Shown: piece by piece, positions 43,773 through 49,814 of the stretch
Layout: the number at the start of each line of letters is the position of its first letter
Numbering within the stretch: position 1 is the first letter of the stretch
Assembly: GCA_040877935.1 (NCBI GenBank)
Contig: JBBDNB010000042.1
Location: 21,726 to 71,590, forward strand
DNA from: Chitinophagales bacterium
GTDB taxonomy: Bacteria > Bacteroidota > Bacteroidia > Chitinophagales > CAIOSU01
DNA: 49,865 nt
Direction of reading: 5' to 3'
Notes under the pieces: generated by a model
The model's input: the letters and a program-made list of their open reading frames with translations, nothing else
Databases searched by the model: none
Told to the model about the DNA's origin: nothing
Made by a program: the position numbers and the translations under genes

Positions 43773-43904
43773 AGCTATGAAATTTTCTTGTTCAAAAATA
43801 CTGAATTAATTGGGGGCTTTGAAATTGGGCTGATTTTTAGGTATAATCCCAAAGAAGATATTTATCAGGACATGCAGAACTGCCCTCACTCATCATATCT
43901 AATT
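43773..43904. other. Boundary between core genes and the repeat-bounded array
   Basis: A 130-bp AT-rich gap upstream of hmgA and left of repeat copy A. It should hold the hmgA promoter. No repeat or gene is recognised. Confidence 0.4.
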
Positions 43905-44005
43905 AAACCCAAACAACAAACAGCCATTTTTTCTTATTTTTATTTTCATATGGAGGCGACTACAAGATGTAATATTGAAAGGGATTCCCACAAGTTGCAA
44001 GCTTT
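43905..44005 (+). repeat. Array repeat, copy A
   Basis: About 100 bp: cccaaacaacaaacagcc, a T-rich block, catatggaggcgactacaag, then atgtaatattgaaaggg and cacaagttgcaag. It is shared with copies B-E and has the same orientation. It diverges after 44005, where the MORN-type gene begins. Confidence 0.92.
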
Positions 44006-44010
44006 CGTGA

Positions 44011-44726
44011 TGTGGAGGGAACTCATAGGAAAAATATTAGCAACAGGACTATCACTATTATCAAATACATACCAAGTAATTAAACTGTTTGTTTTTTTAT
44101 TTTTAATAATTTCTTGTAATGACTGCAGAAAGGATGGACTTAATTCAGAAGAACAATCAAAATTAACTGATTCAGTAATAATTCACTACAAAGATTCAAC
44201 CATTCACATAGTTTACCATGTAGAAGATTCTTTATTACATGGTAAATATTTATTTTACTACAAAAGCGGTCGACTTTTTACTGAAGGTTATTATAAAAAA
44301 GGCTGGCAATCAGGGGTATGGAAATATTACTATGAAAATGGAGAGGTTAGTGAAATAGGCAAATATGATCAAAACGAACTTGATACTTCATTAGTTAATA
44401 AAGTCCATCTTACAAAACAACAAAGTTCCGATTGTCATTTCATAAGTTCTTGGAATACGCATCAAGCATATAAAAAAGAAGGAGAAGCTCCAAGAGTAGG
44501 GATTTGGTCTGAATATTTTAAAAATGGGGCAATAAAAGCTAAAGGTAAATATTTACCTATTACGTTTTGTGAATTTGAAATTGATCCAGATACATTTAGA
44601 GAAATTGAATGGGTTCATTATCCAAAAGATAGTATTTGGAATTACTGGGATTCAACTGGCAAATTGATTAGACAGGAGTTTTACAAAAATGGTATGATGG
44701 TTGATTCTACAATATTTAATAAGTGA
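44011..44726 (+). CDS. MORN/YwqK-type lipoprotein
   Basis: The start is uncertain: ATG 44011 gives 238 residues, and ATG 43951 inside repeat A is in frame and would add 20. A hydrophobic signal segment ends in a lipobox (LIISC), giving an unusually long leader with either start. The mature part has MORN_2/YwqK-like repeats (HGKYLFYYKSGRLFTEGYYKKGWQSG, VWKYYYENGEVSEIGKY, IWSEYFKNGAIKAKGKY). These beta-hairpin repeats occur in surface and toxin-immunity-like proteins. A later segment (YPKDSIWNYWDSTGKLIRQEFYKNG) repeats the pattern. Codon use is much more AT-rich than in hmgA next door. Confidence 0.75.
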
Positions 44727-45940: not shown

Positions 45941-46013
45941 AAACTTAAAATAAAAATTTCGTTATTTTAAGTTTATGGCTCAACTTAAAATAAAAAAGTC
46001 GTTGTTTTAAGTT
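45941..46013 (-). promoter_or_regulatory. Twin palindromic operators upstream of the Fic gene
   Basis: Site 1 (45941-45974) is a perfect 13-bp inverted repeat, AAACTTAAAATAA/TTATTTTAAGTTT, with an 8-nt spacer. Site 2 (45982-46013) repeats it with one mismatch and the same spacing. The centres are 40 bp apart, and the first site begins 9 bp from the Fic start codon. Confidence 0.75.
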
Positions 46014-46363
46014 ACCAAGCTAAAGTTTCAGAGCAAAATTGAGTAGCGTTTATACTGAGGCATTTTCCACGATATTCAATAGTTACGGAATCAGTAAACC
46101 CAATAGAAAACGGAATCCGGGAGAGAATGGCATTGAGCAATTGAGCCATAAAACAAGCATAAACGTAGTGGTCATTGCGACTTTGTCCGAAGCACAGCAA
46201 TCGGGAAATTTTTTTAAAATTTCCCGCTAATTGCGTAGCTAGTTTAGTCGCAATAACGCAGTGTTGCGTAGCTTTTATGAGTTCAATTGGTCGCAGCCTT
46301 GAATTTTTTGGTACTTTTTTTTCAAGAAAAAAGTACGAATAAAATGTAAAATATTAATGACAT
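46014..46363. other. Gene-free stretch with strong hairpins
   Basis: About 350 bp with no gene. It contains a perfect 11-bp stem with a 3-nt loop (CGGGAAATTTT/AAAATTTCCCG, 46202-46226), a 10-bp stem GTACTTTTTT/AAAAAAGTAC (46311-46336), and a doubled tgcgtagc. It may be another small repeat element or transcription-stop region placed before repeat B. Confidence 0.6.
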
Positions 46364-46433
46364 CCCACCAAGCCCAACCAACAAACAGCCATTTTTTCTT
46401 ATTTTTATTTTCATATGGAGGCGACTACAAGAC
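46364..46433 (+). repeat. Array repeat, copy B (short)
   Basis: Same sequence as copy A from the cccaaccaacaaacagcc part through catatggaggcgactacaag, but it stops at 46433. The rest of the element is replaced by the coding sequence of the TPR gene, whose ATG (46415) is inside the repeat. Confidence 0.9.
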
Positions 46434-47335
46434 AGATTTTTCTACAAATTTTCAAAAGCATTAAAAAAACATGGTTTTTAGGCACTTTGTTTTTTATGTC
46501 TTGCTTTAATACCTATGAAAATGAAAATCGTGATTTTCAAGCTGATATAGATTCTTTTGTAAGTATTCTAAATGACACTATCCTAGGAAAAAGAGATTTT
46601 GTAATTGAAAAAACTTCACAGCTAATAAAGAAAAATAGTTCATGTGGTGAATGTTATTTGTTTAGAGCTTTTGCTAAAGAGGATCTTTCTTTAGAAAATG
46701 AAGCAATACAAGATTACTCTTATATCATAAACAATAAAGACAGCTTATCATTTGAATACACTTCATTAAGTGTAGACACAATATTATCAATAGCTCATAA
46801 AAATAGAAGTACCCTTTATTTTAAAAATGAAGAGTATATAAAATCAATTTATGATTCAGAAACTCACTTAAAATTTAAAGGAGACAACATACACGACCTA
46901 AATAATATCGGTGCTCTTCAAATGAAATTAGGAAGACCATCTATAGCATTAGCTTATTTAAAACTAGCCTACAAAATAGATAGCTTACATTTTAATGTGT
47001 TATTAAATATTTCGCAGGTCTACTTAAATATTGACTCACTAGTTTTAGCCAAGAAATATATTAATTCTGCTTTGAAGCAAAAATATGATTACGAAGCCTT
47101 TTATACCCGTGCTTTAATAAATAGCGAACAAAGAAACATTGATGAAGCAGAAGAAGATTTTCAAAGATGTTTTAAGCTAAACAACACTGATCCAGAAATA
47201 TATAAAGCATATGCACTGCTGAAACTTTCGCTAAAAGATACTTCAGCATTTTGTAAAAACATAAAAACTGCATTGGAGCTAAATGGTCGTTTTGATGAAA
47301 AGCAGATTTCTGAAATTTGTTACAAATACCCATAG
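46415..47335 (+). CDS. TPR-repeat lipoprotein
   Basis: This 306-residue protein has its only usable ATG at 46415, inside repeat B (first residues MEATTRQ). A hydrophobic segment follows, ending in a lipobox-like FFMSC (Cys at about residue 29). The mature part is a chain of helical TPR-like repeats: CGECYLFRAFAKEDLSLENEAIQDYSYI, DLNNIGALQMKLGRPSIALAYLKLAY, LNISQVYLNIDSLVLAKKYI, FYTRALINSEQRNIDEAEEDF, IYKAYALLKLSLKDTSAFCK. It should be a lipid-anchored protein-interaction scaffold. Base composition is very AT-rich. Confidence 0.82.
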   Translation: MEATTRQIFLQIFKSIKKTWFLGTLFFMSCFNTYENENRDFQADIDSFVSILNDTILGKRDFVIEKTSQLIKKNSSCGECYLFRAFAKEDLSLENEAIQDYSYIINNKDSLSFEYTSLSVDTILSIAHKNRSTLYFKNEEYIKSIYDSETHLKFKGDNIHDLNNIGALQMKLGRPSIALAYLKLAYKIDSLHFNVLLNISQVYLNIDSLVLAKKYINSALKQKYDYEAFYTRALINSEQRNIDEAEEDFQRCFKLNNTDPEIYKAYALLKLSLKDTSAFCKNIKTALELNGRFDEKQISEICYKYP

Positions 47336-47367
47336 CTGATGCAATGACACCTAAGCAGTGAGCATAG

Positions 47368-47546
47368 TCTTCTTCTACCAAACACAACCTTGCCCAAACA
47401 ACAAACAGCCATTTTTTCATAATTTTATTTTCATATGGAGGCGACTACAAGATGTAATATTGAAAGGGATTCACAGAAGTTGCAAGCTTTGCAAACTTTG
47501 GGATGGAGGCACAAGAACCGCTTTGCTAATTCTTGCGCCAGCGGGA
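47368..47546 (+). repeat. Array repeat, copy C (long)
   Basis: A full-length copy: the acc-rich start, aacaacaaacagcc, the T-block, catatggaggcgactacaag, atgtaatattgaaaggg, agttgcaag, and a right part ggaggcacaagaaccgc...ttcttgcgccagc that forms the hairpin GGC-a-CAAGAA/TTCTTG-c-GCC. Confidence 0.92.
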
Positions 47547-47593: not shown

Positions 47594-48205
47594 ATGTTTA
47601 GTTTTAAAAGGCAATTTATGATTCCCAAACTAATATTTTATTTTATTTTGATTATTTTTTTTATTAAATGTTCATCAAATGACAAAAGTAATGAAAGCTC
47701 ACATAGTTACTCAAATAATTGGTTTAACTATTGTAATAAAAGTGGCGGATATTCTATACAATTTCCAAACGAGCCAACTGATTATGATACAGTAATAACA
47801 GGACACTTTAGTAAATACAACCTAAACAGTTATTTTATATCATACAACCCCTATAAAAATGAATACAATAACTTCTATCTTATTGAGCACAAAATATATT
47901 CTGACTCAATTTTGAAACTTATTGGTTTAAAAGATTTTGAACTCATTAATTCTCAAATCGACACAATACAAAAATTATTTGAATCAGAAATTGTTAGATC
48001 AGAAATTGAAAAGTCAGACATTGGTTATTGTAAAGCCAAAAGAGTTAAAATGTTTAACGCGGATAAAAGTACTATACTTTCTGTTAAAGTGATATTTTGC
48101 AATAATACACTGTACACTTTGATGGTTTCCTCAACACCTAAAGAACAAAGAAACATTTATATAAATAAGTATATGAACTCATTCGCTATTAAAAACTGTA
48201 AATAA
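47594..48205 (+). CDS. Lipoprotein, paralogue 1 of a tandem pair
   Basis: This 203-residue lipoprotein (lipobox FFIKC, Cys26) starts at ATG 47594; ATG 47618 would also give a good signal peptide. A Ser/Asn linker precedes a domain opening with WFNYCNKSGGYSIQFPNEPTDYDTVI. The pattern of a Tyr-Ser-Ile strand followed by FPxxP occurs in PsbP/DcrB-like folds, but I cannot assign it firmly. Cys residues near the end (GYCKAKR, VIFCNN) could form a disulphide. It shares the domain opening, the late Cys pair (CYIKRIK in the partner) and its length with the next gene. Confidence 0.78.
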   Translation: MFSFKRQFMIPKLIFYFILIIFFIKCSSNDKSNESSHSYSNNWFNYCNKSGGYSIQFPNEPTDYDTVITGHFSKYNLNSYFISYNPYKNEYNNFYLIEHKIYSDSILKLIGLKDFELINSQIDTIQKLFESEIVRSEIEKSDIGYCKAKRVKMFNADKSTILSVKVIFCNNTLYTLMVSSTPKEQRNIYINKYMNSFAIKNCK

Positions 48206-48838: not shown

Positions 48839-48910
48839 ATTTATGTGAAGGGTAATAATAGTGAGAAAGGCTCCATAGTTGGCAAGAATGGCACTCTGGC
48901 CCGCCCGAAT

Positions 48911-49080
48911 GCCTTCTTCCACCAAACCCAATCAAACCCAAACAAACAGCCATTTTTTCTTATTTTTATTTTCATATGGAGGCGACTACAAAATGTAATA
49001 TTGAAAGGGATTCCCACAAGTTGCAAACTTGCTTTGGAGGCACAAGAACCGCTTTGCTAATTCTTGCGCCAGCAGGGGAA
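48911..49080 (+). repeat. Array repeat, copy D (long)
   Basis: Full length, close to copy C, from cttcttccaccaaaccc to gcgccagcagggg. It contains the palindrome CAAGTT-gca-AACTTG and the CAAGAA/TTCTTG hairpin. Confidence 0.92.
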
Positions 49081-49100: not shown

Positions 49101-49661
49101 ATGCAAAATATTGACAGAGTTAAAAGAAATGGCAGAATAAAACCTTCGATCTTTGATTACATTATATCATTTGGGGTGTTGTTTTTTTTTATAATGTTTT
49201 GGCTAGTTGCTTCATCATTGTTTTTATCTCATTTTCTTGATTATTTACTAGGAAATGAATTAATAATAAGCAATCTAATTATTTTCTCTGTGACATTTTT
49301 TTTAAGCACATTAGTATTGATTCGTTCTATATCAATGATACCTGGAAGGCTCAGACTGCATACAATAGTAGAAAACCTGAATGATAATATAAACAAAGAG
49401 GCTGTTGTAGAAAATGCTCTTAAAAGACTTCAATGGACCTATTATAAAGTTTCAGATCATGAATATCATGCTACTACAGGTTATACAATCTACTCCTTTG
49501 GACAAGAAATTACCATACTCTACTTTGAGGACAAAATATTAGCTAATAGTGTTGATTACAAACATGCTTTAATATTTAATAGTAATAAAAAAAATATCGC
49601 CATTTTAAAGAAAGTAGTCCATGATATTTTAAGAAATCCACCTTTGGAAATAAAAAAGTAA
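49101..49661 (+). CDS. Membrane protein, unknown role
   Basis: This 186-residue protein has two transmembrane helices (about 19-45 and 54-76) close to the N-terminus. A cytoplasmic or periplasmic domain of about 110 residues follows (LHTIVENLNDNINKEAVVENALKRLQWTYYKV, YHATTGYTIYSFGQEITILYFEDKILANSVD). The soluble part is alpha/beta and has no motif I recognise; the pattern resembles small Bacteroidota proteins with a short-strand PH-like domain. It forms a single-gene cassette between repeats D and E. Confidence 0.75.
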   Translation: MQNIDRVKRNGRIKPSIFDYIISFGVLFFFIMFWLVASSLFLSHFLDYLLGNELIISNLIIFSVTFFLSTLVLIRSISMIPGRLRLHTIVENLNDNINKEAVVENALKRLQWTYYKVSDHEYHATTGYTIYSFGQEITILYFEDKILANSVDYKHALIFNSNKKNIAILKKVVHDILRNPPLEIKK

Positions 49662-49672
49662 TGGGTTCATAT

Positions 49673-49800
49673 CCCACCTTCTTCCACCAAACCCAAACAA
49701 TCCCAACCAACAAACAGCCATTTTTTCTTATTTTTATTTCCATATGGAGGCGACTACAAGATGTATTGAAAGGAATTCCCACAAGTTGCAAACTTGCGGG
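49673..49800 (+). repeat. Array repeat, copy E
   Basis: From cccaccttcttccacc through aacaaacagcc, the T-block, catatggaggcgactacaag, then a small deletion (atgtattgaaagg) and the hairpin CCC-a-CAAGTT-gca-AACTTG-c-GGG. After 49800 the sequence turns G-rich and a new open frame starts. Confidence 0.92.
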
Positions 49801-49814
49801 AGGTGGGGCGGGGT

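Follow-up and report, generated by a model that had tools for sequence, protein, structure and literature searches.

Integron cassette arrays are composed of co-oriented small genes, including toxin-antitoxin pairs, with a repeat at many of their boundaries, and Rhs-type toxins are associated with displaced toxin tips and orphan immunity genes. Among dispersed repeats, in-frame fusions with genes have been described for bacterial MITEs and for the Rickettsia palindromic elements (RPE), according to the available part of the source (PMC10969869). The recombinase-associated acquired interbacterial defence (rAID) arrays, in turn, are described from the Bacteroidales, in an article available in part (PMC12247911).

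The locus presented here belongs to a Chitinophagales bacterium, in an assembly of 63 contigs, and was analysed in a window of 49,865 nucleotides (positions 21726-71590 of contig C42), the last base of which is also the contig end. In this window, copies of a modular repeat separate co-oriented genes, and one of them, copy B, runs in frame into a TPR lipoprotein gene. The features of the window are the following:

43901..44018, + strand: repeat copy A, with an ATG at 43950 in frame with the following MORN lipoprotein ORF
43950..44726, + strand: MORN-repeat lipoprotein ORF read from copy A, with ATT 44079 at the normal start place; the ORF tool starts it at GTG 43731
46364..46414, + strand: module R1 of copy B, a G-poor, C-rich leader followed by the T-rich core CATTTTTTCTTATTTTTATTTTCAT at 46390-46414
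46415..46432, + strand: first 18 nt of module R2 in copy B, containing ATG 46415 and encoding MEATTR
46415..47335, + strand: TPR lipoprotein ORF of 306 aa, with its start within copy B and its stop codon TAG at the edge of copy C
46433..47329, + strand: DNA specific to the TPR lipoprotein gene, 897 nt or 299 codons between copies B and C
46460..46462, + strand: ATT codon at the normal lipoprotein start place, 14 codons before the lipobox Cys, with 4/4 favourable upstream adenines
47330..47546, + strand: copy C, with all modules (R1 with a 5' extension, R2 and hairpin R3), followed by a gene with an ATG of its own at 47594
48909..49077, + strand: copy D, followed by a gene with an ATG of its own at 49101
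49677..49810, + strand: copy E, near the contig end (within about 70 nt)

Structure and Distribution of the Repeat

The repeat has three modules: R1, which is G-poor and ends with a T-rich core; R2, which starts with GGAGG; and R3, a hairpin. Regarding R1, a role as a Rho-type terminator was considered for its C-rich, G-poor sequence followed by a T-rich stretch, and would be conjectural. Two small palindromes are present in the less altered copies of R2, and, folded singly, R2 and R3 are no stabler than shuffled sequences (z-scores of -1.1 and -0.2, respectively). R2 also exists without R1, and as both such aligned copies have no ATG, the start codon looks like a product of the seam between R1 and R2. 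This ATG is found in the MEATTR frame in copies A to H, lies two bases earlier in J and K, was lost in I, and is missing from L, which is truncated before it.

The alignment comprises twelve copies: A-E in the window (C42); F, G, H and L on C13; I on C14; J on C11; and K on C43. A sequence model built from them finds these 12 again, plus at least two weaker R1 copies, on the same five contigs, with 150 of 7153 and 150 of 3402 first-look candidates scored in the searches, so that weak copies may be missed. The weaker copies are at C14:15128 (E 1.6e-4) and C43:236064 (E 0.007); in the latter, the T-rich core is altered and the downstream ORF can be read as a thioredoxin reductase. The remaining 13 of the 27 model matches have E > 0.05 and are probably due to chance. 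Copy K (L019 6296-6541, 246 nt) consists of R1 and R3 with no R2; it starts with CCCCGCTGGTGCAA and ends with the complement of CCCCGCTGGCGCAA. Its inverted ends match each other (CCCCGCTGG-Y-GCAA), while the ends of the other copies are worn or missing, and its R3 end runs in frame into an apparent toxin-tip fragment.

Beyond this genome, a weak 28-nt match to the repeat was observed in one of 59 other relatives (E 7.8e-4), and none of 395 other genomes of the order matched in a shallow search that scored two candidates per genome and recovered no more than 2 copies from the genome itself. The exact junction pattern is absent from public genome and viral contig collections, where records of this genome may be left out, and the Rfam search returned one match only, under the gathering score (E 0.24). 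Within what was searched, the repeat thus appears to be restricted to this genome.

The genes separated by the repeats comprise orphan lipoproteins (MORN, TPR and others of unknown type), a DUF433/DUF5615 pair, a PemK toxin with its small partner, and Fic and DUF4062 genes, arranged in arrays on C42 (46.4-49.7 kb of the window) and C13 (0.2-8.3 kb). A same-strand gene is located downstream of the repeat in 10 of the 12 copies, the other two being copy E, which meets the contig end, and copy I. Pfam names the lipoproteins that it recognises as TPR and MORN, padloc gave no match for any of eight array proteins, and NCBIfam gave matches for two of the eight, all under the cut-off. With regard to REP/RAYT elements, Y1-transposases have three matches in the genome, one of which is on the array contig C43, more than 200 kb from the array.

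Other repeated sequences were noticed around these genes. Two segments, L016 5809-5934 and 7299-7423, form a 126-nt repeat, the first copy of which encodes a NGKTSAAFEKNGEDIYFN-like sequence and is perhaps the remains of a Rhs-type toxin tip. Another strong hairpin repeat (z-score of -3.5 for one copy) lies by orphan genes at L016 7529-7582, L019 4954-4997 and L019 7260-7312. In the window, two near-identical 32-nt palindromic units at 45942-46013, upstream of the Fic gene, are a possible operator. Upstream of copy A lies a likely gene remnant of 40 nt (43831-43870), which shares 87.5% identity with the 3' end of the small gene preceding PemK on C13 (L016 1307-1345).

Junction of Copy B with the TPR Lipoprotein Gene

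The alignment of copy B (about 46364-46432) with copy A shows 98% identity over query positions 1-60 (E 1.9e-23). From the ATG, both copies are identical for 18 nt, down to 46432, and are unrelated beyond this point. The statement in the preliminary description that copy B breaks off where the gene-specific sequence starts is therefore borne out, the break being 18 nt inside the ORF. The same description held that the only usable ATG of the gene lies in this copy, and this agrees with the ORF analysis: as the tool opens the frame at 46415, there is no ATG, GTG or TTG between the preceding stop codon and this position, making ATG 46415 the sole start of these kinds ahead of the signal-peptide region. 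Further on, an in-frame TTG (46487) and an ATG (46496) precede the lipobox Cys (46502), too close to it for a signal peptide. The ATG of the repeat is consequently the best canonical start for the TPR gene, and to this extent the proposal that the repeat gives the start to whatever follows it is partly supported. The first six residues, MEATTR, are shared by copies A, B, C and E, as had been noted, and also by F, with the last one differing in D (MEATTK), G (MEATTQ) and H (MEATTS). Read from 46415, the N-terminal part would include MEATTRQIFLQIFK, with 29 residues ahead of the Cys.

At the other end of the gene, the similarity of copy C to copy H starts at 47330, which places the TAG stop codon (47333-47335) at the 5' edge of this copy, so that both the start and the stop codon of the TPR gene lie in repeats (47330-47335 for the latter). 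This arrangement, with exactly 299 codons between the two copies, would also be expected of a dead or broken gene fragment, or of an assembly mis-join at copy B, as short-read assemblies break at repeats, the genome is in 63 pieces, and the contig itself ends within about 70 nt of copy E. Such a reading seems unlikely, however, as the ORF is free of stops through its 306 codons and has four TPR families over the Pfam cut-offs. Moreover, copy B carries sequence differences of its own and hence is no plain copy of a neighbour, and the read-through from repeat to gene is seen in A and J as well. Searches for a homologue of the TPR gene that retains a native N-terminus gave only weak matches of the TPR type (20-41% identity), in 24 of 59 other relatives, and none was confirmed as a homologue among the contigs of a public genome collection.

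Start Context at ATG 46415 and ATT 46460

According to the available part of a study of Flavobacterium johnsoniae (PMC6847099), Shine-Dalgarno signals are absent in Bacteroidota, and initiation is favoured by A at positions -3, -6, -12 and -13. This preference for upstream adenines is also seen in the present genome, at 311 unambiguous starts collected from about one quarter of it (965,655 bases). ATG 46415 has none of the four favourable adenines, a state shared by 11.9% of the 311 true starts and 26.8% of 2392 internal ATGs, and its context score corresponds to the 21st percentile of true starts and the 95th percentile of internal ATGs, suggesting that it is a weak but possible start. Regarding the length of the signal peptide, 59 of 64 lipoprotein-like ORFs have an ATG at 60 codons or fewer from the Cys, with the nearest ATG at 23 codons or fewer in 53 of the 59. 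The TPR gene, counted among the 59, and three others have it at 29 codons, one of the three being the array gene after copy K.

It may be asked, then, whether translation begins at the near-cognate AUU at 46460, with an ordinary signal peptide, (I/M)KKTWFLGTLFFMSC, the repeat being a mere upstream neighbour and its in-frame ATG a coincidence or a weak second start. By eye, the sequence after this codon, (I)KKTWFLGTLFFMSC, is a textbook lipoprotein signal peptide, and its 14 codons to the Cys are within the usual range. All four adenines are in place, as in 8% of the 311 true starts, 0.8% of 4592 internal ATTs and 2 of 99 ATTs in ten array genes, and the context reaches the 78th percentile of true starts, a score equalled or exceeded by 3 of those 99 ATTs. 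In addition, an ATT is present at the matching place in the genes following A (44079) and J, and the rough chance of finding it in all three is 0.0008, or 0.008 for any of ATT, ATA and ATC, with two positions allowed in each gene and the count made post hoc. On the other side, the context of the counterparts is middling in A (1/4 adenines) and poor in J (0/4, score -2.4), and the in-frame AUG upstream would compete. AUU starts are, besides, rare and weak. In Porphyromonas gingivalis, AUG makes up 97.4% of the curated starts and the remainder are UUG and GUG, as given in the accessible portion of PMC5771137. As the three-of-three count is post hoc and the context is good in B only, initiation at the AUU is kept as a rival explanation, one that we consider unlikely. 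The native start of the gene after copy A is not fixed by its MORN paralogue on C13, as the N-terminus of the latter is unaligned. Taken together, either the native ATG has probably been lost or else the AUU is used, and the simplest reading would be that the native ATG was lost and the start of the repeat took over.

The Other Copies and the T-Rich Core

Ten copies have an ATG (A-H, J and K). The frame continues into the following gene in three of them, A and B using the MEATTR frame and J another one (MRRHLQDTILKAI...). After six of the ten (C, D, F, G, H and K) comes a gene with an ATG of its own, and in copy E the MEATTR frame closes after 29 codons. The fused frames of A and J are opened upstream by the ORF tool, at GTG 43731 and L018 GTG 7780, respectively, and there is another in-frame ATG in copy A, at 44010. 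Copy G has a third open frame, which starts at an upstream TTG and continues through the repeat into the Fic gene; L016 1930 was taken as the ATG belonging to this gene. Comparing the first 51 nt of copies C-H with those of A, 21 substitutions were counted. Of these, 16 are nonsynonymous and 5 synonymous, codon position 3 has 9, position 2 has 7 and position 1 has 5, and 12 of the 21 are in copy G, which also has an out-of-frame deletion. These counts give no sign of a conserved peptide. By hand and post hoc, it was observed that the fused copies A, B and J (43901, 46364 and L018 7770) follow an opposite-strand gene, while C-H, K and L follow a same-strand ORF.

The T-rich core shows another behaviour. 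Over all pairs of A-K, 40 of 1365 positions differ in the core vs. 445 of 1923 in the stretch just upstream, and in a subset chosen by us (A, I, J and K), the counts are 0 of 147 vs. 61 of 225, with a one-base gap in J set aside. Within the genome sample, the core is confined to the repeat copies, even with 4 mismatches allowed. A 25-nt form of it is unchanged at 43925-43949, L017 6891, L018 7814 (J, one base shorter) and L019 6375, with diverged flanks. Such unusual conservation suggests that the core may have a function, and it is a candidate for a functional site. Regarding promoters, the TTTG/TAnnTTTG consensus, as given in the part of PMC6847099 at hand, was scanned at a threshold of 8 of 10; no match was found in 11 of the 12 copies, and copy F has one weak match 70 nt upstream. 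Upstream of 46415, at a distance of 100-180 nt and outside the repeat, there are three weak 8-of-10 matches, compared with 1.3 from plain shuffles of 46001-46415.

These data bear on the possibility of an evolved expression or capture platform, in which R1 would carry a promoter or another active site and the genes behind it would be expressed from the ATG of the repeat. The conserved core, the same-strand gene after most copies and the three fusions are in line with it. Nevertheless, the genes after six of the ten copies with an ATG have starts of their own, the fusions use two frames, the ATG was lost or shifted in I, J and K, the repeat itself lacks the promoter consensus, and the search of the array contigs for a tyrosine recombinase was negative, so that we regard such a platform as quite improbable. 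The preliminary description had extended the case of the TPR gene to a general rule, the repeat being an expression start for any gene that follows. In that form the idea is weak, as only three of the ten copies fuse, in two frames, most of the next genes have their own ATG, the peptide is not conserved and the T-rich part has no promoter consensus. Least probable of all, and by our estimate very unlikely, is an integron- or rAID-like capture system with the core of R1 as the insertion boundary, where the flanking repeats would complete and express gene bodies devoid of start or stop (for the TPR gene, the start from copy B and the stop from copy C) and the AUU would be a relic or a regulated native start.

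Proposed Origin of the Fusion

With a probability slightly above one half, in our estimation, the TPR gene is the outcome of a chance fusion, a MITE-like intergenic repeat having incidentally provided its start, rather than of an evolved expression platform. The sequence, the junction, the frame and the sole canonical start are shown by the DNA itself, and the order of events, translation and function are inferred as follows. The element, short and non-coding, is made of R1 with its conserved core, R2 and the hairpin R3, and punctuates a series of orphan lipoprotein genes, toxin-antitoxin genes and Fic genes. Its ATG may have arisen at the seam where R1 met R2. At copy B, recombination or insertion would have cut R2 after 18 nt, abutting the TPR lipoprotein gene in frame, and the ATG of the repeat would then open this frame, adding MEATTR and a few residues ahead of the signal peptide. 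Before or after the fusion, the native start would have been lost, its place being probably that of the present ATT 46460, and translation, if any, would proceed from 46415 with the long signal peptide of 29 residues before the Cys.

The chance fusion is favoured by the ATG, frame and junction, by the 306 open codons and the TPR families, by the seam position of the ATG, and by three fusions in two frames among ten copies with no coding conservation. It is further favoured by a repeat found essentially in its own genome, by the ATT that stands in A, B and J where the native start is expected, and by the precedent of MITEs and RPE. Against it stand the poor context of ATG 46415, far better at ATT 46460, and a signal peptide longer than in 53 of the 59 lipoprotein-like genes. 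The conservation of the T-rich core above its neighbourhood also speaks against it, suggesting some function of the repeat. Moreover, if the position of A, B and J after an opposite-strand gene, recognised post hoc, is not due to chance, a simple accident leaves this pattern unexplained.

The TPR gene would be a small, clear case of a dispersed repeat rescuing or re-starting a gene that has lost its own start. It is also a warning for the annotation of start codons in Bacteroidota, where the favoured start context is rich in adenines. If the conserved T-rich core is truly an active site, this group would seem to have a new kind of gene-array organiser.

Comparison with Known Systems

Similar to Rhs-type displaced tips, orphan lipoproteins adjoin an apparent toxin-tip fragment here (L019 6463-6705), for which no Pfam match was obtained. 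The Rhs core has a single short match in the genome, on C39, which is not an array contig; as a source of the repeat it was discarded, because the 15 kb surrounding this core have no match to R1-R3 at E 1e-4. With integron arrays, the locus shares co-oriented small genes, toxin-antitoxin pairs and a repeat at many boundaries. The search for the IntI integrase (TIGR02249) gave 7 matches, none over the cut-off, and RNAalifold returned 0 pairs for seven extended R1 copies in a gappy alignment. On these grounds the locus was not classed as an integron, the integrase matches being all under the cut-off and the gappy R1 alignment giving no conserved fold.

The rAID arrays, as far as the available part of their description goes, resemble the locus in their co-oriented short genes, many orphan lipoproteins and conserved intergenic sequence in between, and probably in belonging to the same phylum, the Bacteroidota, to which the start context and the gene content of the present genome also point; co-oriented short genes with a conserved intergenic motif were indeed found on C42 and C13. 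Unlike rAID arrays as covered by the same portion, toxin-antitoxin and Fic genes are mixed in, and the array genes are only candidate immunity genes. The tyrosine recombinase (PF00589) was found on none of the array contigs (C42, C13, C14, C11 and C43), with matches on C48, C56 and C39 and one below the cut-off on C1, and the locus was not classed as rAID for this lack on the array contigs. As C42 ends and C13 begins in or near the array, the recombinase could be missing from the assembly.

Compared by features alone, the repeat differs from the RPE because it is placed at the 5' end of the gene and provides its start, its peptide is not conserved and most copies are purely intergenic. The in-frame insertion inside genes with a conserved peptide that defines RPE is not its pattern, the copies being intergenic and 3 of 10 reading through. 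Regarding MITEs, no direct repeat common to the flanks was seen as a target site duplication when copy K, and only this copy, was inspected by eye, so that the element is called MITE-like and not a MITE. Its dispersed copies without coding capacity of their own, at least 12 clear and at least two weaker R1 copies with no coding constraint, are as in MITEs. Finally, like both RPE and MITEs, it is a short dispersed repeat of about 100-250 bp that gives codons to unrelated genes and has small palindromes, here in R2 and R3.
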